Source: Sphagnum magellanicum (taxonomy: Eukaryota > Streptophyta > Sphagnopsida > Sphagnales > Sphagnaceae). From it: a stretch of DNA of 64,000 bases. The position numbers were made by a program, and so were the translations under genes. This document shows, piece by piece, positions 28,039-41,944 of this stretch; the stretch's first letter is position 1, and the number at the start of each line of letters is the position of its first letter. The notes below the pieces were generated by a model. The model did no database searches. It saw nothing but the letters and a program-made list of their open reading frames with translations, and had not been told where the DNA came from. The DNA is taken from assembly GCA_021904315.1 (NCBI GenBank), contig CM038907.1, forward strand, positions 32,123,223-32,187,222, read 5' to 3'.

Positions 28039-28662
28039 TGTTAAAGGGGTAGGATGAGTACATGATTTTGGATGAACAAGGCATTTAAAATAAGGACTGA
28101 TCAAGGAACTTTGTTAATTTGAATTTTGAATTCTTGTTGTTTTCTATCATGGTGATGTGACTTGGGACAATTGAAAAGGAAAGAGTTCTGGAAAACAAGG
28201 GGGGATTATTAAACATAGTTTTGGAAAAAGTAGGAGGATCTATATGTACCTAGTGTAGAAAACCATAGATTATGTTTTGAGACACCATAGATTGTAATTG
28301 TTGTTTTGGGATTTTTTCAACAAAACATGGGATTTTGCTATTTTCTTATTCATATTTTCAATAATATAGAAAAAAACAAACTTCTACAGTGAGTTTTATG
28401 TTCATATTGTTGTGTGAATTATTTGTACTATCAAAATATGCTGAAATGAATTGTGATTTTGTTTTTGGAGTCGTTTTTTCCAATGTATTCTAAAGTGTAA
28501 ATTCTAGTTATATGAAATAACCATGAATCTAGTGTTTTAATGAATGGGAATGTTAAGTATGTTGAGAATTAACTAGGAATCGTGAATGTATGCATGTGAA
28601 ATGCAAATCTATTGTTACAGTAATGTGAAATATTATGTAGGAATTAAATTTCACATCTACCA
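28039..28662 (+). repeat. 5' long terminal repeat
   Basis: 624 bp, starting TGTTAAAGGGGTAGGATGAG and ending near ATCTACCA. It aligns throughout with 40918-41538. Landmarks are GAGTACATGATTTTGGATG, TTGTTAATTTGAATTTTG and GGAATTAAATTTCA. Identity between the LTRs is roughly 85-90% by eye, so the insertion is not recent. Confidence 0.85.
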
Positions 28663-28664
28663 TT

Positions 28665-28682
28665 TGGCGACCATATTTGGGA
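28665..28682 (+). other. Putative primer binding site
   Basis: TGGCGACCATATTTGGGA begins two bases after the 5' LTR. The TGGCG(A/C)C start is like primer sites complementary to a plant tRNA 3' end; the rest has drifted, so I do not name the tRNA. Confidence 0.45.
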
Positions 28683-29029
28683 AATTTCTTTTTTGTTTTC
28701 TCTTTCAATAATGGGAAATTTTTCTACAAATTTTGTTGTATACTATAGATAAGAATGTTCAAATGAGTAATCTTGTTTTTTAAATTTGGAATATTAAGGG
28801 GTATGTTAAAAAGTATTAGAAGTTTAAGTGATTGATGTTGTAAGGACTGCAAAGTGATCTACAGACTCTAAAGACGAAAAATTATGAACAAGATGAATCA
28901 AATGGTGACCCAAAGTTTATAGCAACAATTGAACTTGGAGGCAAATTGGTAAATTATTGAAAAACAAACAAAAGACAATCTTGAAATTGGAAAGGAACAT
29001 GCAGGACTTATAAAAAACCCATATCAAAA

Positions 29030-31230
29030 TATAATGTTGGACAAACAAGTTTTGAAAAAAAAGGTAAGGCATGCGAGGCACCGGTCATTTCTACCACAAA
29101 AAGTGGTACGGTGTGAAATATGGACTGGGGGTCTTTAGAAAAGGCACAATTATAGATGATGATCTCCACAGAAATAAATGCAATCGACCACTCACCCAAA
29201 TGAATGGGTGCAGTATACTTCTCAGTCACAATTTATGGTTTAAAGTCAAAAAATCAAGACAAAGCAAGGACTTTTATAATACCTAATCTATCACAAGAAA
29301 TCTCAAATCCAAAGTCAGTGAATAACTAAAGAAAGGATGTTATAGGAGGTATACAACCTAGATTTGTGTATCAGTCTACATCTTCAGATTATTATGAACT
29401 AATGGAAAACTAAGAGGTGGAAAAAAACACCAATATTGATGTGGTTGAGGAAACTGAGGAAAATTACCTATGATCATCTGAGTATGCAGAGGCACAAGTG
29501 AATGTGTTGGATGAAGTACAACAATCATACTAACATCAAGGGAATCCAAAGTTGGATCAAACAAGGTACATAACTGAAACATAGGATCATGAATATGTGG
29601 ATTCGGAGATGGTCAAATTACTTTCAAAGGTTTGTGCATTATGTGAGGAAAAAGGACATGTAATCATGGATTGTCCTTTTGTGTATTTTCACATCAAAAT
29701 AGGTATTGTTGGACATGTGGAATTATAGAATGTGGCAAGAGCATTAATGGATCAACCACAAGAACAAAAACCAAGAATTCCTATAGTTTAGAATAGATTG
29801 AAAGGCAGGGAGTTGGGAAGCCAATTGGGACCACAAAGTCAACAAATTCATCCATCTATTTAAACCAGGAACAGAAAACCACAGTGGTATTCACATCCAC
29901 ATTATGCACCACAAAAAATACCAATGGGTAACCACAAACTAAAACATCATTGACTTCAAGTCAACACAACTCCACCAATAGTGTCAAAAGCAACAGTTGT
30001 TGAAACCCAAAGATATCATGTTAGAATAGGAGTTACTTAATCACTTGATGTGGGTATAACAACCATAGGAGTAGAAATGGTTGTTGTGCCCAACATAGAT
30101 GTTATTAGAAGGGGAATACTAATCGGATCTACATCAAAATTAGGTAGCGAATAAAATGGAGTCCCGGAAGGAAGGAATTTAGCTATATGTTAAAAGATAC
30201 AACATTGGACTGGTGCCATAATTACATGTAGGAATTTCTTGATTGTACTTTTTCGGAGCTAACACATGCATTTTACAAACGTCATAGGAAGACTCAGAAT
30301 GATGAGCAAAATATACATGGAGCTAAAGAACATGAAGCAGGATGAAACTAAGAGGGTGGAGGTTTACTATAAGTGAATTCAAAAGTTAGTTCATGGTCTA
30401 CAAGTACCAACCATAGACAATTTTCTAACTATTGTGTTTAGAGCAAGTCTATAATCATACCTCAGAATTGCAACTACAAGGATGAAGCAGTCAACATTAC
30501 AACAGAATAAGGAGGCAACAATGTTGTGTGAAAAAGGCATGACTACTATAGAAACAAGGAGTGCATTATCAATACCAAACAAAGTACCAAACAAATAGCA
30601 CCGATAAAAACACAGAGTAATAGAAGAAAGACTAATAAACATTGCACAAATTGTGGGATGATGACCCATAATGTGGAGACATGCAAAAAAAAGGAGTAGA
30701 CCACAATGGCAACCATAGAAGCAACACAACCAAGTCAAAAACCATAGAATAGATCTTCATATGCATGCCACATCTATGGCTTGAATGGACATAAAATGAC
30801 AAATTGTCCAAAGTTTATTTAGATACAAAAACTGTTTCATGGGAAATTTGTGGCAGTAGTAGAGGTTCAACTTGTTGCTAAAACATAAATAGTCACTACG
30901 GATGTGAATGTGGTGGATGTTAATGTTACCACAAGAAGTAAAGTAATTAAAGTACATGTGTTCAAGGATAGAGGGCCAAGAAAAACAAAGAACGATGTTG
31001 AATGGGAGAAAGAAGAACTATTGAAAAAGTCAATGGTGGAGACAATTCAACAAATTCAAAAGACACAAACCTAGACAAAAGGGCCATCCACATCCATGGA
31101 AGGATGGAACACAACATGGTTGAGTTTGCCAAATACTATTCTTGTGGAAACACAAAAATTATAACAAATAATGAATTCACAAAAGAAACCAATAATAGTA
31201 GAAGAATGTTTTTTAGATATTGGTAAACAA
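29030..31230 (+). pseudogene. gag-like region with three zinc-knuckle motifs, broken
   Basis: Three CX2CX4HX4C motifs lie on the plus strand. CALCEEKGHVIMDC (29633-29674) is complete. CTNCGMMTHNVETC (30643-30684) is complete. CHIYGLNGHKMTNC (30766-30807) has its second Cys changed to Tyr. Between them the frame is broken by TAG and TAA codons. Zinc knuckles bind nucleic acid in Gag proteins of LTR elements. The distance of over 1 kb between the first and the other two suggests a rearranged or duplicated gag. Confidence 0.65.
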
Positions 31231-31439
31231 ATGTTTGAAACAAGTTATACTTTGAACTTGGACAATTATTTAAAATAGCTCCTAAGTTAAAAGGATATTT
31301 TTGATAGAAATTAAAACTAGAAAAAATTCAAAATTTAAGTAGAGTAATTATAAATAAACAAATTGGTTCTTTAGTACCAAAAGTAGGGACAGTTGCTATA
31401 ACAATAGATGATCATATGGCAATTATCTAAGTATAGATT

Positions 31440-32168
31440 GGGAAGAATACAATAGAGGATGTGTTGTTGAATAGAGGTTTTAAAATAAATATTATCACAA
31501 AACAATTGAGATTAAAGTTAAGGTTTCCAAAACCTAAACATGCACCATATAATTTTAGGATGGCAGATCAAACAACCACAAAATCGGTGGAGTTGATTAG
31601 AGATCTGAAGATATATGTTCATGGCATTCCTTATATAGTAACATTTACTATACTTCAAAATAATGTGGTAGATTTTAATTATTCCATGTTGTTGGGGAGA
31701 CCATGGTTGAAGGATGTTAAAGTGGCACATGATTGGGGAAGTAACATTGTTACCATACAAAGGAATGGAACAATTAAAACAATCATAGTCACCAAACATT
31801 TGGGAGGTGAAGTAAAAAGACCAGAAGTGTTATTGTGTTATGATTATCAGAATGGCATTACATATGAAGAAGAAGATATCATCCTTACTACAAAGCCAAA
31901 ATTATTCTCCATAGGAACAATTAATTTATCTAAAACAATTCAATCTGTGAAATCCACAAATGTGGAAATCATGGATATAGATGTGAAGACTAGTATTTTT
32001 AAACAAGGATCTGGAGTACATAACACAAAAAAGAAAATACTTGGCAACAAATATGAGCCAAAAGTCGCTTTGGAAGATAAGGTGTATTTGAAAACATACT
32101 ACAGACATCAACCAGGGAGTGTTATAGTGGATGAAACTCAAACAAAAATCAAAGCACATGAATTGTAG
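31440..32168 (+). pseudogene. Retrotransposon aspartic protease region
   Basis: The frame from 31461 is open for 235 codons. A retropepsin-like fold is suggested by LLNRGFKINIITKQLR, where the family has an Asp-containing active site followed by NIIT, then by MADQTT, TFTILQ and the typical closing motif LLGRPWL at about 31690-31715. The catalytic Asp position reads Asn (LNRG), so the enzyme would be inactive. The frame runs on through a linker and stops at 32168, just before the RT region. Confidence 0.7.
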
Positions 32169-32261
32169 ATAGTTGGATGGACGTTAATTTGAAATCAATA
32201 GTTGATGAAACTTAATCTAGGAACTCATGCAAAACCACAAATGGTGAAGATTAATGCATAG

Positions 32262-33600
32262 TTGGAAATAAGCAAGGTGTTGGAAGTGGAGCAACTATTG
32301 AAGGAATTCAAAGATGTTTTTGCATGGACATACAAATATCTAAAAGGAATTCCACCAAAGCTAACACAACATAGAATTGAATTGGACATTACTATACCAC
32401 CAGCACATCAGGCCAGGTATGGATTAAATCCAAATTATGTTACAATGGTTAAACAAGATATTAATTAGTTATTAGCAATTGGATTCATTAAATCTATGGA
32501 AAAAATTATATGGTGTCACCCATAGTAATAATACCAAAGAAAAATGGCAAGCTGAGAATTTATATAGATTTTAGAAAATTAAATGTAACCACAAAAAAGG
32601 ATCCATACCCATTACCTTTCACAGAAGAAATGCTAAACAAAATAGCAGGGTATGAAGCATATTCTTTCTTAGATGGATATTCAAGATATCATCAAATCTT
32701 TATAGCTCTAGAGGACAGATACAAGATTGCATTTGTTACAAACTAGGGAATTTTTATATGGAAGGTGATGTCGTTTGAAGTTTAAAATGGACCTCCAACA
32801 TATCAAAAAACTATTACTAAAGCATTCAGAGAATATTTGGACAATTTTATGAAGATAATTCTGGATGACTTTATAGTGTATAGTGACATGGAGAGTCATC
32901 TATAGAAGTTCAGACTATGTTTTCAAAAGTGCAAAGAATATGGTATTAATTAAAATCCAGAAAAATGTGCATTTATGGTATTTTAAAGGATGATCTTAGG
33001 TTTTATTGTTTCTAAAAAAGGGAAACTACTAGATCCAAAGAAAATATAAACAATAGTAAACATGCCACCACCTAAGAATCTTTAGCAGATTCAAATATTC
33101 AATGGGATGGCACAATTTTAACAATGTTTTATCAAAAAAATTATTACTATCATGGCACCTATCATTAAACTGACTAGAAGGACAAACACTTTTCTTTGGA
33201 CAAAAAAATGTCAGAAGGCCTAGGAATTGATTAAATAAAAGTATATTGAAATACTGATATTGATATCACCAAACTAGCATGTGGAATTTCATGTTCATAC
33301 ATATGCATCCTTGTTAGTTGTGGGGGCTATGCTGTTTCAAAACATAAGAAGGAAAAGTGATCAACTAATAATGTATGCTTCTAGGCTTTTGAATAAAACA
33401 TAATAGAATTATAGCACAATAGAAAAAGAGGCTTTAGCAATGGTTTTTACTTTGCACAAGTTCAGACATTATTTGTTGGGCAATAAATTTGTCTTTTATG
33501 GAGATCATATGGCATTGGTCTATTTGGTCAACAAACCACATGTTTTAGGGAGAATAGTTAGATGGTTGTTATTGGCGACCATTGAAAGTTTGAAACTAAC
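32262..33600 (+). pseudogene. Reverse transcriptase and RNase H region, broken
   Basis: FKDVFAWTYKYLKGIPP begins the RT. Then come VSPIVIIPKKNGKLRIYID (from 32512), FLDGYSRYHQIFIALED, the catalytic ILDDFIVYSD (about 32858-32887), NPEKCAF and LGFIVSKKGKL. RNase H follows with VEFHVHTYASLLVVGAM, where a catalytic Asp of the usual DAS is Tyr, and EKEALAMVFTLHKFRHYLLG (about 33430). At least ten in-frame stops occur, almost all TAG or TAA. After RWLLLAT at about 33575 the family-like sequence ends; integrase is not seen. Confidence 0.8.
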
Positions 33601-35330
33601 CTTGTGATGGTCAATGTCAATAAGTTCAAACCTTAGAAGTACATGCAATTTGAAATTCAAAAACAAAAACAGTCACAATAGATGCCATTATATTGGGAAT
33701 AAAGTGTAGGTAGAGTTCAAGTAGAAAATTTTGATACGAAGGAAGATGATGAAGACTATGAAATACAAAAACCACATATGAAGAAGGTTGAAGATGAAGA
33801 ACAAACTAAAGATCCTGTGGTGAACATAATGTTGATTTTCGATCTGTAAATGAATAATAAATCCATGAGTAATAACTATAGAAGTTAAGGATTTGGGACC
33901 CAGAGGTTTGAAAATGATATGTTAGAAATATTAGCTCAATCGGCAACATTATTTGCCTAGTCATCATGCGCATTCACATAATCGTTAGATTTGTTGCCAT
34001 AGTCAGTAGTAAAATCAATATAGTCAATAGATGTTTTCACAATCAGCAGATGAATTTACAGTCAATAGATAAATGGGCATAGTTAATAGAAGGTGTACAG
34101 GGCATACAAGGTGGAGTTAATATAGTTAATGAAGGGATATTAGAGATCTGGAGTAATCGAAAGATGAAATCTATGACTTCCGTTCATAATGATGAAGTGA
34201 AGTGCTTCCACATGGCTATACAAAAGACACATAAATTTGTAATGATGGGCCATATTAATTTTGAGGATCATACGTTAATCAAAAAATGGCAAGTAGGTAA
34301 AAAATGAATGTGATGAGGGAAAAGCTCTAAAACGAAAAAAATGGGGTAATCGTCAAAAGCAATTTGTGTTTGTTGTTGGAAGTTGTGCATGTTTTCAAAG
34401 TTCTAAAGTTCACAACAACATGAGTATAGAGAACGCCATTGAAAAACTATAAAAAATAGCAAGGGAAAAAAAAACATAAAGGATTGAGCATAGACAAAGG
34501 TAGGAGGAAGTAAAATTGTTGAAAAGAACAAAAGTAGAGAGAGAAAGCATGTTGAATATTCAGCCATTGGCTATAAGGTCGCCATCACATTCGTCATCAT
34601 CTTTGAAATGTGCAGAAAAGAAAGCGTATAATGAGAAAATACAATTTGCGTGAATAATAATTCACAACATAGATACAACTGGAACATTTACAATTGAGTT
34701 TTTGCGAAAAATCTAAAGATGTTGGTGTGCAAGAAAATAGACAGGACTAGGAGCTACATCAATAGATCCAATGTTCATTGAAAAATCGAAGGAGGATGAA
34801 TCTATGGAGCAACATTTTGTGGAAGCACAAATAATGCGAAAGGCCACAAAGGAGGAGAACGTTGTTGAGGTAGAAGAAGAGTTATCCATAGAAGTGCAAA
34901 TGAAAGTGCAGCAAGCCACAAAGGTGCAGGAGATGGCAGAAGCATAGCAAAGGGTGATGGAGATGCAAAGGTGTGAATCGGAAGCTATAGTGAAAAGAAG
35001 ACATGCAATAATAGATAAAGTTACATTTTTTAAGAATGGTATTAAAATTCCAAACCCTAATTGATTCATGTGGACACAAACAAAATTAAATTATGATAAA
35101 CATGTTGAATGAATGGAGAACTAGAAGGATATTGTTGAGCAAGAAAATTGGGCTTCTAAAGCAGGGTTGGTTACTTTATTTATGATGGAGTGGCATGCAC
35201 TAATGCTTGATGTAATGTTGGAATTTCTAAACACACTTTTGATCAAGGGTGCAAATATCTACTTTGGGCATAAAGATAAGGTGTATGTAATTAGCAAATA
35301 ACTAATTGTAAATGTCTTTGGAGTGTGTAC
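33600..35330 (+). other. Post-pol region of the LTR element, 5' part
   Basis: Plus-strand frames are broken. Charged, helix-like text is seen at 34770-34950 (KEENVVEVEEELSIEVQ), and a frame with WHALMLDVMLEFLN runs into the CACTA insertion at 35334. I do not recognise a family. Short repeated phrases such as AGTCAATAGAT and AGTTAATAGA occur at 34000-34140. It sits where integrase would normally be. Confidence 0.45.
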
Positions 35331-35761
35331 GGACACTAGAAGAAAAACATGTATTTTCAACTAGTCTTTGTGACTAAATTTTAATCGCAAGAGACATTTT
35401 GCAACTAAAATCCTTTTAGTCGCCTAAGACAAGTCGCATGTGATAAACTAATCACAAATCATAAAGGGTATTATATGAAAGAAAAAGTCAACAAATACAT
35501 TTCATCCTTTGACTCCATTGTATACGTATTGTCACATGCGACTAAAATGCAATTATTTTGGTCACAATTGAGGGCAAATCATGTGTTGCCACGTGTTTTA
35601 ATATTTGATTATAAAAAATATACATTATAAAATAATGTATATTTTGAAATAATCTAAGACGTTCAATTCAAATATTTGGATGATCTTACATTATGACACG
35701 TGGCCCAATGTAAATATGCCACATGGCATTACAATTTTAATTTAATAAAAAAATTAATATT

Positions 35762-35995
35762 AGGTTGATAGGTACCTAGGTAGGTACATAAATAGGTGCC
35801 TACAATGTTAGGCTACCTACCTACCTACCTACCTACTTAGGTCAAAAAGTAAATAGGTAGGTTCTACCTTCCTAGGTTAAATACCTACTCATATAGGTAC
35901 ATACTTAGGTAGGTAGGTACATAGGCTGACCTAGATGGCTAGGTCAAACTAAGTACCTGCCTAGCTAAATAGATAAATAGGTTAGGGAGGTAAGT
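35762..35995. repeat. Palindromic TAGG/CCTA cluster inside the CACTA element
   Basis: TAGGTACCTAGGTAGGTAC, CTACCTACCTACCTACCTAC and TTAGGTAGGTAGGTACATAG occur on both strands, so the 230-bp stretch can fold on itself in many ways. Confidence 0.75.
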
Positions 35996-36273
35996 ACTTT
36001 AGAATTGTGCATTATTTATTTTTTTGTTTTAGGTTAAGCCTTTTGATTAGCTCATCCCATGTGCACTAATTTCATAATGTGAAATTGGATGGGCACACCC
36101 CTTTGTTTATATAATGTTCATAGGAATGAAGAACAAACAATATGGGATAAGTTTTGAAGTTGCAACTTCCTTACAAACTAAGTTGTAATTCCAAAACTTT
36201 CTTCATGCCTTATTTTTTTAGTTGTCAGATTTTTAAACAATTCAAATATTAGATAATTATTTAATTAATAATG

Positions 36274-36275
<2 letters not shown>

Positions 36276-36305
<30 letters not shown>
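36276..36305. repeat. (AT)n microsatellite
   Basis: About 15 AT dinucleotides in the AT-rich interior of the CACTA element. Confidence 0.9.
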
Positions 36306-36308
<3 letters not shown>

Positions 36309-37164
36309 AATTATACACTACAAATATTCATTATTCATTATCAATTACTTAAATAAGTAATAACTTTTTAATATTTAACAAACTAGCTTTTTGGTTACTC
36401 ACAAATTATTCATACATACCTCATAAATAATTAAATAAATAAAATATTTAAAAATATTTTATTACTTTTTAAAATCTGATTGAAATATATAGAATATAAT
36501 TAATGTAAAATTAATTTAATGACTATAATTTCAAAGTTAAAATTTTAAAATATTTATTTCAAAATCATAAGTAATGAATTAACAATTGTTATTAGAAAGT
36601 ACATTCTTACACGAATTGTTCAAAAACTATTATTCAACTAATTACATTACTTATTGTAAAAATTATTATAGGTCAAATAATTATTTTCTCTTGGTAATTA
36701 TTAACTATAAATACAATAATTTGTCAAACTAAACATTAATTTTCATAATTACTGTAAAATTACTATAAAATATTCATCATAGATGATTAATCATAGAATG
36801 TTTTTAGATAATATTATTTTATAATAATTCATGAAATTACAATCAGTAAAATAATTATTTTAACTACATTGTAATTTTTCCAAATTTTTAACTCAGGTTT
36901 GAAGTTATAAATTAAAAAGTGCGAATAATTATGTTCAATTAGAAAATAATTATGCACATACTAATTAATTCTTATCTGAAATAATTACAATGATTTGAAA
37001 GTAATGTCAAATTATTTACACGAATTAATTTCTTCTAATATAAGAATATAAATTATATAATATACAAATTTATGTTATAACAATAATTAGATTTAATAAA
37101 CATAATCATTTATAATTATTTATAAAAGTGATTTATTATGGATAACACTAGTAGAAAAAACCTT

Positions 37165-38035
37165 TGAAACTCAATCAATAATTTTTTCAATTAGAATATA
37201 AATTTAAGATTCCAAAATATCAATTCGGAATTCAAATATCAATTTTAGATCAAATAATTTTTTTGAAGTTAAATAACAAATTTCAGAATTGAAATATCAA
37301 TTTTCAGATTCAAATAATAATATTCAAAATTAAAATTTCCATTTTAAGACTCAATTAATAATTTTTTGAATTGAAATATTAATTTTGAAAATCCAAAATA
37401 ATAATCTGGAATTAAAATTTCAATTTTCAAGTAAATAATTTCTTAAAATTTAAATTAAAAACTTCAAAATTCAAATATCAAATTTCAAGTTCAAATAAAA
37501 ACATTTAAAATCAAGTTGTCGATTTTAAAACTCAATAAAGTTTTTAAAACTGAAATGATAATTTAGAATTCAAATATCAATTTTTAGATCAAATAAGTTT
37601 TTTGAATTTAAATAAAAATTTTCAAAATTGAAATGTCAGTTTTTAGATTCAAATAACAATATTCAAAATTGAAATGTCCATTTTTAGACTCAAGTACTAA
37701 TTTTCAGACTTGAAGTTTTAATTTTGAAAATAAAAAATAATAATTTGGAATTTAAATTTCAGGTTTGAATCAAATGATTATGTAAAATTTAAATGCAAAA
37801 TTTTCAGAGCTGAAATATAAATTTTCATATTCATATAAAAATATTCAAAATCAAAATGTTTATTTTTTAATCAATTAATAATTTTCTGAATTGATATACT
37901 AATTTTTGGATTCGAAAATATTAATTTAAAATTCAAAATCAATTTTTAGATCAAATAATTTTTTTTGAATTTAAATTGAAAATATCATATTCAGATCAAA
38001 ATTTTCAAATTCAAATATTAATATTGAGATTCATT
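37165..38035. repeat. Tandem array, unit about 175 bp, five degenerate copies
   Basis: The anchor A(C)TCAAT(T/C)AATAATTTT recurs at 37169, 37349, 37530, 37688 and 37870. Each unit continues TGAATTGAAATAT, AATTTGGAATTC and AGATCAAATAATTTTTTGAA. It begins right after a second CACTA-like end at 37146 (CACTAGTAGAAAAAACC). Confidence 0.6.
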
Positions 38036-38380
38036 ATATGAACAATATACATACATATGCATATTATATATATATAATTTGAGTACATACATTAAAATAC
38101 AGCCCTATGTCATTGTAGAATACTTTTAGGATGCAACTAATTTGGTGACTATTGCAACTAATGGGACATGTCAACCTATTAGTGGATGAAAATAAATGTA
38201 AAATTGATGCAACCAATAAGATGAAATTTTTAATAGTTGCATCATAGTTTAAAAAATGACCAAAATAATTGAAAGTTGGTCGTGTAGTTGCAAGATTCCC
38301 AAATCTAGTCGCAAACGACTACAAGTCAAATGTAGTTGTAAATGGAGTGGTTACATTTTGGCTGTTTTCTACTAGTGGGA

Positions 38381-40860
38381 TGGGTATGTAGAAAAACCAA
38401 AAGGACAAGTCAATAAATCATTAACAATTTAGGCCTTATAGAGTTATAGACTTGCACCTACAAATTCTTCTGTAGATTAGTGGAATACAAAGAGTCTGGT
38501 TCTACTATATTCTATCAAATGTCCTACTATTATATTTATCATTTATCAAAGGGAGAAAGTCTAATATTTTAGCAACAAAAATGCCATAACATTGATGAGA
38601 ACAAAAAAGGGGTAGAAGGTAGATTGGGCACAAATTATATTCAATAGTCTATGTAGTGAGCTAGATCGGAGGTATAATTATGTTAAGGAAAATAAAGGAG
38701 ATAAGAAAGAAACTTGTTAGTCTGCATAAATATTGGCAAAGATCTTTTTGTATCTATTTGTGCATCAAAAGGAAAATCCATAGAAACCACCAACCAAGGT
38801 TTTTAAAACTAGGGAGGAGATGCAAATAGCATTGGAGAATAAAAAGAAAGCTACAAAAAACTCTCCAAGAAGTGCTCTTAAGAGGAAGAGCATAATTGAA
38901 AAAGAAAGAGCTTGAGGCTCAAGAGTGAAGAGGGAACAGGAGAACATAAACATGAAGGCACAGAAAATGATGAGGGGCAAAGTGGAACCATATGTAGTGC
39001 CAATAATGGTAAAGGCGATGCCAACAATGGTACAAATAGCCAGATAGACTACAAAGATACCACAAATGACAATTCCACAAGAAACACAACTAAGGGAGCA
39101 GAAGCGAGAGGTACCACAGATAATATGTCCATAGGAGAGACAATTGAGGGAGCAGAGTTAAGGAGTTAAGAAGGAACCTGACACAAGGTTTCCAGAAGGT
39201 GAAGAACATTTGCACTTTGATGCAAATGTGTATGAAGATTATATGGAAACCATCGTAAGTCCATAACATTTGCAGCATTTGGAACAACATTTGCAGTAGC
39301 AACAACAACAAACACAAGAAGGTTTTTAAGCTACTAAACTATAGATGGAGAAAGTGGTGACACAACTTGCTTTTAAAAAATTGAGACCAGTAGAACTACA
39401 AGTAGCACCTAATATACTAAAATCTACAAAGGGATTCCCATTTGAATTTGAACTAGGGAAAAGAATGGTGTAGGAGTTGAGATCATCTGCAGAAGGATCT
39501 GGAGATCCTACAACACAAACAAGTACACCAAAGTCTATGGAAGAGGTAATTACAGAAGTAATGAAAACAAATAAGATCACTGAGTTATTTCAAACCATGG
39601 CAATTGTGAGTTTAAATATGGGGAATTTCACTCTAGAGGTAAACACTCTAAAGCACAAATTGGTTGTAAGGGAGAAGGAGAAGGCAATGTTATAAGAGGA
39701 ATCGGAAAAGAAACAAGACATTCAAAAAGGGTATAAACATAATGTGGAAATCTGGAAGAAGAGTAGGGTAGAAGTTGAGTAGAAGATTAAAATGTTTGTT
39801 AAGAAACTACATGATGAGAATGAGAAGCTCAAGGGTAGCACAACACACCTGAAGTCACAAGAGGAAAAATTGCAGGATTTAAGGCAAAAGGCTGAAATCA
39901 CTAGAAGAAAAACCCCATTTTTCTTCTAGTGAATCTGGGAAACCATAGAAAGAAAATGGACATAACATTGTTTTTTCATAAAAAACAATAGGAGGTTTTG
40001 GATAGTTAGGTGAAAGCACTAACTAAAGAAGGAGAAGGAAAATGTTTTGACAAATTTGGAGTTAATAAATTTGAAGAATGTGTCTTTATTGTAATTTAAA
40101 GAGATTAAAAGAAAGACAACAGAGGCAGAAAAAGAGAAGTTATTGGAAGACAAAAAAAATATTAAAGGAATTTGTAACACCTAAAAGCATAATTGGAGAT
40201 GGCACAAGAATAGAAGAAGGGTTTGGATCCAATTGGTGTCAAAAAAAGACAAGAGGATTATGAACAAATGATGTAGTACTATACTTTGATGAAGATGAAA
40301 AATAAGGTGAAGGATTTTGAAGCAAAATCTAAGGAATGGTGGGAGGTGGTAGATGAATATTTTACAAAGGAGATGGAAAAGAATCTAGCTTAGCACAAAA
40401 CTAATGAAAAGATTTTAAAGTACAAGTTGGAATATTATCAAAAGAATTTTCCAATTTTCATTTTTGGTAGTTCAACAAGTATAGAGGTATTGGGTCAAGA
40501 TGAGGAAAATGAAATAGGGCCCAGTGGAACAACACAAGAGGAGGAAATGCAGATTAAGGAACCACAAAACCTTAAAAATGGAACAATTCAAGAAGAGGGG
40601 GTACAGTTAGAAAAACCATAGGACTTTAAAGGAAGGGTCAAAAAGAAAAAAACCATAAAAAATTCAAGAACAAGAAAAGGTGGAAATTATTTCAACAACA
40701 AAAGTAATGGAAATAGAATCACAGACTGAATTAGTGGGGGAAAAGATTGGAACTACAAAGCTAAAAGTAGATATTGAACCATTAGTTCCTATAAAGGTTG
40801 AAATTACAAAATTGTAGTAAGGGAGACAAATGTTTAGAAAGACATATAATACTTTCATTT
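38381..40860 (+). pseudogene. Post-pol region of the LTR element, 3' part: extra open frames
   Basis: Broken plus-strand frames, strongly charged and partly coiled-coil in look: MSIGETIEGAELRS at about 39140, EEVITEVMKTNKITELFQTM at about 39540, KIKMFVKKLHDENEKLKG at about 39790. No known domain was recognised. Some plant Ty3-like elements carry an additional frame between pol and the 3' LTR; its role is unknown here. It also holds the 33-bp CACTA unit at 39899. Confidence 0.45.
39899..39931. mobile_element. 33-bp minimal CACTA unit (two ends only)
   Basis: CACTAGAAGAAAAA (14 bp), a 5-base centre CCCCA, then the exact reverse complement TTTTTCTTCTAGTG. The 14-bp arm equals the first 14 bases of the CACTA element at 35334. 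The 3-mer AAT stands on both sides (39896-39898 and 39932-39934), as a CACTA target duplication would. Either it is an extreme deletion product of a CACTA element, or ends left by an abortive event. Confidence 0.8.
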
Positions 40861-40907
40861 CATTTTTGTCATTTTACAAAGATTTCAGGGACAAAATCCA
40901 AAGTACA

Positions 40908-40917
40908 TAAGGGGTAA
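40908..40917 (+). other. Polypurine tract
   Basis: TAAGGGGTAA directly before the 3' LTR start TGTTAAGG; the position and purine content fit the plus-strand primer of an LTR element. Confidence 0.6.
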
Positions 40918-41538
40918 TGTTAAGGGGGTAGGATGAGTACATGATTTTGGATGAACAAGGCATTCAAGATAAAGATTGATTAGGGAACTTTGTTAATTTG
41001 AATTTTGAAATCTTGTTGTTTTTTATCATGGTGATGTGATTTGGGACAATTGAAAAGGAGAAAGTTTTAGAAAACAAAGGAGGATTATTGGACACAAAGT
41101 TTTGGGAAGAGTAGGAGTTGTAGGTACTTGGAGTAGAAAACCACAGATTATGTTTTGAAATACCACAAATTTTAACCGTTGTTTTGGGATTTTTTTTAAC
41201 AAAACATGGGATTTTGTTATATTTTTTATTCATGTTTTCAATAATACAAAAAAACATAAAATTTAGAGTTTTATGTTCATATTGTTGTGTGAATTATTTG
41301 TAGTATTAGAATATGATGAAATGAATTGTGAGTTTGTTTTTGGAGTTGTTTTTTCCAATGTATTCCAAAGTGTAGATTTTAGTTATATGAAATAACCATG
41401 AACTTTGTGTTTTAATGAATGGCACTATTAAGTATGTTGAGAATTAAAGCATGAATAATGAATGTATACATGTGAAAATCAAATCTATTGTTATAGTAGT
41501 GTGAAATATTCTGCAGGAATTAAATTTCATGTCTATGA
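40918..41538 (+). repeat. 3' long terminal repeat
   Basis: 621 bp, partner of 28039-28662. It starts TGTTAAGGGGGTAGGATGAG and ends near GTCTATGA. The terminal A before the duplication is kept, but the preceding bases have drifted relative to the 5' LTR. Confidence 0.85.
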
Positions 41539-41944
41539 TTGGGCCATCTGCTATCCAACCTCATTACTAGGCCACTTTTTGGTTCCAAAGCACAACCTCA
41601 CTACTTCGCACTACCAAACAACCACATCCCTACAAAAACCACCCCTTCCTCCGTGCACCACTAGTACCACAACCCTAAACCAAGCACAAAATAAATTTGC
41701 AATAAACATAACCAAAGTAGAACTAAAGGACAGTAAAGCAATGCATATCAAGCAAGATTGCGCTAAACTAAAACTTAGAGACAATTATTAGCTCTTATGC
41801 CATGCTCTAGAAATTGGAAACAAATGCATGAGTCCCTCTTCCATTGCTTCTTGAGCTCCAATGCCCCCCCTTTTCCATATCACACCAAATCCTTCACTTT
41901 GAAAGGCAAGGGTTGACAATAGTACTCCACCTCAAAAATCAACC
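41539..41944 (-). mobile_element. LINE 5' end (5' UTR and first codons), displaced
   Basis: Directly after the 3' LTR the minus strand reads ATGGCCCAA (41547-41539). Leaving out the LTR element, this runs in phase into GTTTTGGTGGGAGG at 28033. An in-frame TAG lies two codons upstream of the ATG, so this is the likely ORF1 start, and the rest is LINE leader. The 5' border at about 41944 is set only by a possible target duplication. Confidence 0.65.

Follow-up and report, generated by a model that had tools for sequence, protein, structure and literature searches.

dSpm-type elements are deletion derivatives of CACTA (En/Spm) transposons in which both ends are kept, and they retain hundreds of bases or more. 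CACTA elements carry subterminal repeats of 10–20 bp bound by the regulatory protein TnpA, as set out in the sections of PMC8195511 that concern them. In bacteria, REPINs are treated, in the relevant part of PMC3116915, as miniature palindromic mobile DNA. A limited literature search found no published 33-bp CACTA unit and no relevant paper on the smallest transposons or MITEs.

Here, we describe a 33-bp unit in a stretch of 64,000 nucleotides of Sphagnum magellanicum DNA (hereafter the window). It resembles the dSpm type in its CACTA termini, inverted ends, 3-bp duplication and internal deletion with the ends kept, but it is only 33 bp long and its subterminal repeats are gone. With a family of ~140-bp CACTA hairpin MITEs from the same genome it shares the ends, the adjacent CCCCA bases, the 3-bp duplication and the arm variants, being however 107 bp shorter and devoid of the long hairpin stem. 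REPINs are likewise small inverted-repeat hairpin units in several copies but belong to a different, bacterial system.

Results

Structure of the unit and its host element

The unit lies inside an LTR retrotransposon that also hosts a larger CACTA element. The features are as follows.

28039..41544, + strand: host LTR retrotransposon, recognized by LTR-like direct repeats and homologous copies (L002–L008)
35334..38377, + strand: separate CACTA element of 3,044 bp in the same host, GGA on both sides, with an empty site in host copy L008
39896..39898, no strand: left copy of the target site duplication, AAT, found once in six of the seven aligned host copies (ATT once in L008)
39899..39912, + strand: left CACTA arm, CACTAGAAGAAAAA, by sequence reading
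39913..39917, + strand: CCCCA spacer, matching the subterminal bases of the ~140-bp hairpin MITE subfamily by comparison with MITE ends
39918..39923, + strand: TTTTTC, putative deletion junction (6-bp microhomology), found at positions 20–25 and 127–132 of 140-bp MITEs such as L022 and L028
39918..39931, − strand: right CACTA arm, TTTTTCTTCTAGTG (inverted CACTAGAAGAAAAA), by sequence reading
39932..39934, no strand: right copy of the target site duplication, AAT, by sequence reading

The unit at 39899–39931 thus reads CACTAGAAGAAAAA-CCCCA-TTTTTCTTCTAGTG. The preliminary description had reported two perfect 14-bp arms around five bases with AAT on both sides, which is confirmed at 39896–39934. 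TA-rich palindromes aside, this is the sole perfect 14-bp inverted pair with at most 30 bp between its arms in the 64-kb window. CACTA stands at both inverted termini, as is the rule in the CACTA superfamily, and there are no 10–20 bp subterminal repeats, the content being two 14-bp arms and 5 bp. As in MITEs, the 33-bp units are short and non-coding, with inverted ends, a duplication and several copies. Folded as single-stranded DNA, the 33-mer forms a 14-bp stem of −12.1 kcal/mol (z −8.3 against shuffles).

The direct repeats of the host (28039–28668 and 40918–41544) are 86% identical, and the unit is placed ~1 kb before the second one. For the 243-aa open frame of the host, no Pfam family was found. 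The earlier account had proposed a comparison with related LTR copies, on the ground that a unit shared by all of them would be part of the host element. In this case, the 33-mer is absent from all seven aligned copies (L002–L008), the triplet being present once in each, and the two sides of the site adjoin with a short overlap in 10 of 10 host copies for which both sides were listed. Because related host copies run straight through the site, the window unit is, as judged from these alignments, a real insertion with a 3-bp duplication and not host sequence.

The CACTA element at 35334 shares its 14-bp end with the left arm of the unit, as had been noted before. However, it continues with CATGTATTTTCAACTAG and not with CCCCA, and no such spacer occurs among the nine sites found with up to 2 mismatches; the link suggested by the identical end therefore stands for the end only, and descent of the unit from this element was rejected. 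Within 35334–38377 there are also a further internal CACTA end at 37146, ~280-bp repeats at 37184–37984 and an inverted low-complexity stretch rich in TACC/TAGG at 35770–35930. An inverted piece of a CACTA element of this type is present in L004 (608–1129), ~400 bases from the place that the 33-mer occupies in the window. The genome contains at least 152 matches to PF02992 (Transposase_21), some in open frames of more than 500 aa, representing a possible transposase source; no CACTAGWAGAAAAA ends were found in the flanks of the two such loci examined.

Nine 33-bp loci in the genome

A search for the 33-mer and for close pairs of its end, with their 3-bp flanks, had been suggested with the first description, and it was carried out in the genome's own assembly (439 Mb, 31 contigs). 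Exact 14-bp arms at most 30 bp apart occur at two loci, the window and C20:79138, and allowing up to 3 mismatches over the 33-mer (one position A or T) gives nine loci of 33 bp, the reversed-pattern control being zero in both searches. Besides the window unit, these are C20:79138 (L010), C20:2070012, C2:25921244, C18:16480476, C8:17442266, C19:14086602, C15:8018565 and C5:17631787. All nine are flanked by a perfect 3-bp duplication; the triplets are AAT, TTA, ACA, CAA, TGG, ACA, TAA, TAT and TAT. At the window composition two trinucleotides match by chance with a probability of 0.021, and nine such matches with ~8e-16. Two copies of the unit are identical and two more are one base apart. The terminal pentamer is changed at one or both ends in four of the eight other units (C20:2070012, C5, C2 and C19).

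The first degenerate pattern matched 136 sites per strand, its reversed control none, and the nine with up to 2 mismatches are eight units with duplication plus L015, which was rejected as it has no matching 3-bp flank. The sites L018–L023 were also rejected, being ordinary element ends that are near-palindromes themselves; a matching flank at 33-bp spacing is found in none of these seven non-unit sites (L015 and L018–L023). Among the places listed, sites with 3 mismatches are mainly ordinary element ends; longer elements contribute many ends to this listing, and a large share of these ends have CACTAGWAGAAAAACCCCATTTTTCRACTTGTC or a near match to it. Four candidates from the relaxed search (C1:25435485, C4:21185341, C5:21111483 and C20:4005232) lack a duplication and resemble ordinary ends, and a 50-bp pair at C6:2420737 differs in its ends and lacks a perfect duplication. 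C4:822390, with 3 mismatches (TACTAG...TTAATG), seemed to have two ends and is not included in the count. In the relaxed exact-pattern pair search, no end-only unit with a duplication was found for other subfamilies.

As for the surroundings of the units, the second exact 33-mer (L010) sits elsewhere in the host retrotransposon family, within an LTR (window ~41385). Similar stretches, aacaatagYaaatgaag, stand on either side of the 33-bp unit in L012, around 1500, and L014 holds ~370 bp (1018–1413) that are extra relative to the window copy of the same repeat, close to a 33-bp unit.

Empty sites

A matching empty site was found for eight of the nine units, the window unit included. All of the best 40 relatives of C20:79138 (out of 563 candidates) continue through the site, and one of these empty sites is provided by the host copy in the window itself. 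At C2:25921244, 37 of the best 40 alignments (of 481) run through; for C18:16480476, C8:17442266 and C19:14086602, one such relative each is present among the best 40 of 481; and for C20:2070012, 35 of the best 40 (of 85) do so. Two run-through alignments exist for C15:8018565 (best 40 of 85), one of them with a gap at the triplet. Junctions were read for C2:25921244, C18:16480476, C8:17442266, C19:14086602, C20:2070012 and C15:8018565, and C5:17631787 (L012) has no relative but itself among the best 40 of 85. The empty-site triplet is one base off in two cases, ATA for ACA at C18:16480476 and TAG for TGG at C20:2070012. Among the relatives listed, none carries a 140-bp insertion at a unit site, although best-40 sets favour uninterrupted alignments and could miss one; the search that gave the ten adjoining host copies of the window unit does display split matches.

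The parent family of hairpin MITEs

Six pairs of CCCCA-type ends enclose elements of 121–140 bp, four of them with perfect 3-bp duplications, and all six of these MITEs fold as end-to-end hairpins, the stem being interrupted in some. Their ends read CACTAG(A/T)AGAAAAACCCCATTTTTCRACTTGTC, and DNA folding of full elements gives −58 kcal/mol for L028 and −69 kcal/mol for L022. The 140-bp parents also carry short repeated motifs, such as ACTAAAAG and GCAACTA. Because the CCCCA bases next to the arms belong to this ~140-bp subfamily, the comparison of ends points to it as the source of the 33-bp unit. Exact arm patterns at 96–156 bp gave 52 elements, 50 of which were listed, and 20 were assigned to the CCCCA family by reading the listing; of these, 15 retain an intact 3-bp duplication.

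A sister family of ~152-bp elements (for example L068–L071) has ends reading CACTAGTAGAAAAATTGTCTTTTGCAACTTGTC, with 3-bp duplications in four of the six looked at; no end-only unit of this family was found with the patterns searched.

A microhomology that predicts 33 bp

In L022 and L028, TTTTTC occurs at positions 20–25 and 127–132, and GAAAAA at 9–14 and 116–121. A deletion between the members of either pair leads to a 33-bp product, and the sequence obtained when the TTTTTC copies of such a MITE are fused is exactly the 33-mer. Considering repeats of at least 6 bp, a 33-bp product is predicted in 18 of the 20 family members, more than for any other size, followed by 96 bp (12/20), 67 bp (7/20) and 64 bp (7/20).

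Shorter members were found once each at 44 (L024), 64 (L029), 79 (L032), 89 (L033), 93 (L030), 97 (L062), 112 (L055), 121 (L018) and 125 bp (L066), with duplications intact in L018, L024, L029, L030, L055 and L066 and not in L032, L033 and L062; the 81-bp L031, from a different subfamily, does not enter the family counts. The size of the 64-bp L029 is the one predicted from a GTTTTT repeat of L028, which makes it plausible that repeat-directed deletion occurs in the CCCCA family. No member of 96 or 67 bp was listed among 50 of the 52 places at 96–156 bp and in the search for shorter members, which means that the sizes are not determined by repeat length alone. Of the small sizes, 33 bp alone was found repeatedly.

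Arm variants

The end has A or T at position 7, and the units are AA in four cases, AT in two and TT in three. In the parents, these types number 6, 7 and 7, which does not differ significantly from the units (Freeman-Halton P 0.88) in a comparison where the parents (n=20) come from exact arm patterns and the units were allowed 3 mismatches. Since this mixture is the same as in the MITEs, the 33-bp units probably arose several times and not from a single clone that spread. Moreover, both arms carry mirrored differences between AA and TT units, which suggests at least two origins, unless one arm was corrected from the other. The unit variants CTCCA (L012) and CACTAATAG (L016) are also present among the parents, these being however common kinds of mutation.

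Discussion

We consider it probable that the nine 33-bp units are recurrent products of the collapse, in place, of inserted hairpin MITEs. At the window site, a ~140-bp CACTA hairpin MITE, almost a perfect inverted repeat, would have inserted into the host retrotransposon and duplicated AAT. Its hairpin stem would bring the TTTTTC repeats close and invite slippage, and a deletion joining those at 20–25 and 127–132 would remove 107 bp, leaving 33 bp made of both ends and CCCCA. The route could be slippage during replication past the extruded hairpin, or end joining at the microhomology once excision had failed; both would give the same product, and the same collapse at other insertions would account for all nine units. 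That collapse came after insertion, and by which repair route, we infer from this arrangement. The preliminary description had left the choice between movement in this form and a deletion product; the deletion product is better supported, by the junction prediction in 18 of 20 family members and by the arm variants, movement being the less probable reading.

Against in-place collapse, no sister locus with a full 140-bp element at a unit site was seen among the relatives listed. Also, duplications are intact in nine of nine units versus 15 of 20 larger members, a contrast that is not what older collapsed insertions would give but is not significant (one-sided P 0.13).

A less likely alternative is that the 33-bp unit is itself mobile: a CACTA transposase acting in trans would have cut and pasted an end-only form that arose by one or a few deletions, at least some of the nine having inserted as 33 bp. 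This would fit nine loci of a single length, each with a perfect duplication, the duplications being no less intact than those of the larger members, and the identical and near-identical copies. It would also fit empty sites at eight of nine loci with no full-length sister among the relatives listed, and a genome where Transposase_21 matches include long open frames; clonal spread would also give 33 bp as the sole recurrent small size. However, the occurrence of both AA and TT arms points to two or more origins, 33 bp is already the commonest predicted deletion product, and the unit is devoid of the subterminal TnpA-binding repeats described for CACTA elements in PMC8195511. Moreover, ordinary duplex DNA is predicted to bring ends only 33 bp apart into contact at a negligible rate: the equation quoted in PMC3687335, for which 33 bp is far outside the usual range, gives a log10 jM of −78 versus −10 for 140 bp. 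As read here, it returns −7.3 at 1,287 bp, which fits the 55 nM stated in that part of the paper.

It is unlikely, in our judgment, that the unit is a complete moving transposon, for which a CACTA transposase would need only two 14-bp ends and 5 bp, the palindrome perhaps extruding as a hairpin that joins the ends. Such a hairpin, or pairing between copies, would escape the looping limit at 33 bp.

It is very improbable that the 33-mer is an excision footprint, that is, filler or rejoined end fragments after a CACTA element left. Repair after excision can make use of microhomology and leave some end sequence behind, but footprints are usually a few variable bases, whereas the window unit keeps both complete 14-bp ends and both copies of the duplication, and the same length recurs at nine loci. 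Microhomology end joining, which bears on this reading, is treated in the pertinent section of PMC4423477. Failed-excision repair that keeps both ends is part of the collapse explanation. Finally, that the 33-mer is a part of the retrotransposon or a chance palindrome is suggested by its position within the host element, but this has practically no likelihood given the empty sites, the seven host copies that lack it, the reversed-pattern controls at zero and the negligible chance of nine flanking duplications.

A mobile 33-bp form would be exceptionally small for a DNA transposon, would set a very low limit on what a CACTA transposase needs and would cast doubt on whether subterminal binding sites are required. 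If the units are remnants, as the preferred explanation of collapse in place holds, a hairpin MITE collapses repeatedly at one 6-bp repeat, which would offer a natural record of how palindromes drive deletion in a eukaryotic genome and would account for end-only transposon fossils that may easily escape annotation.
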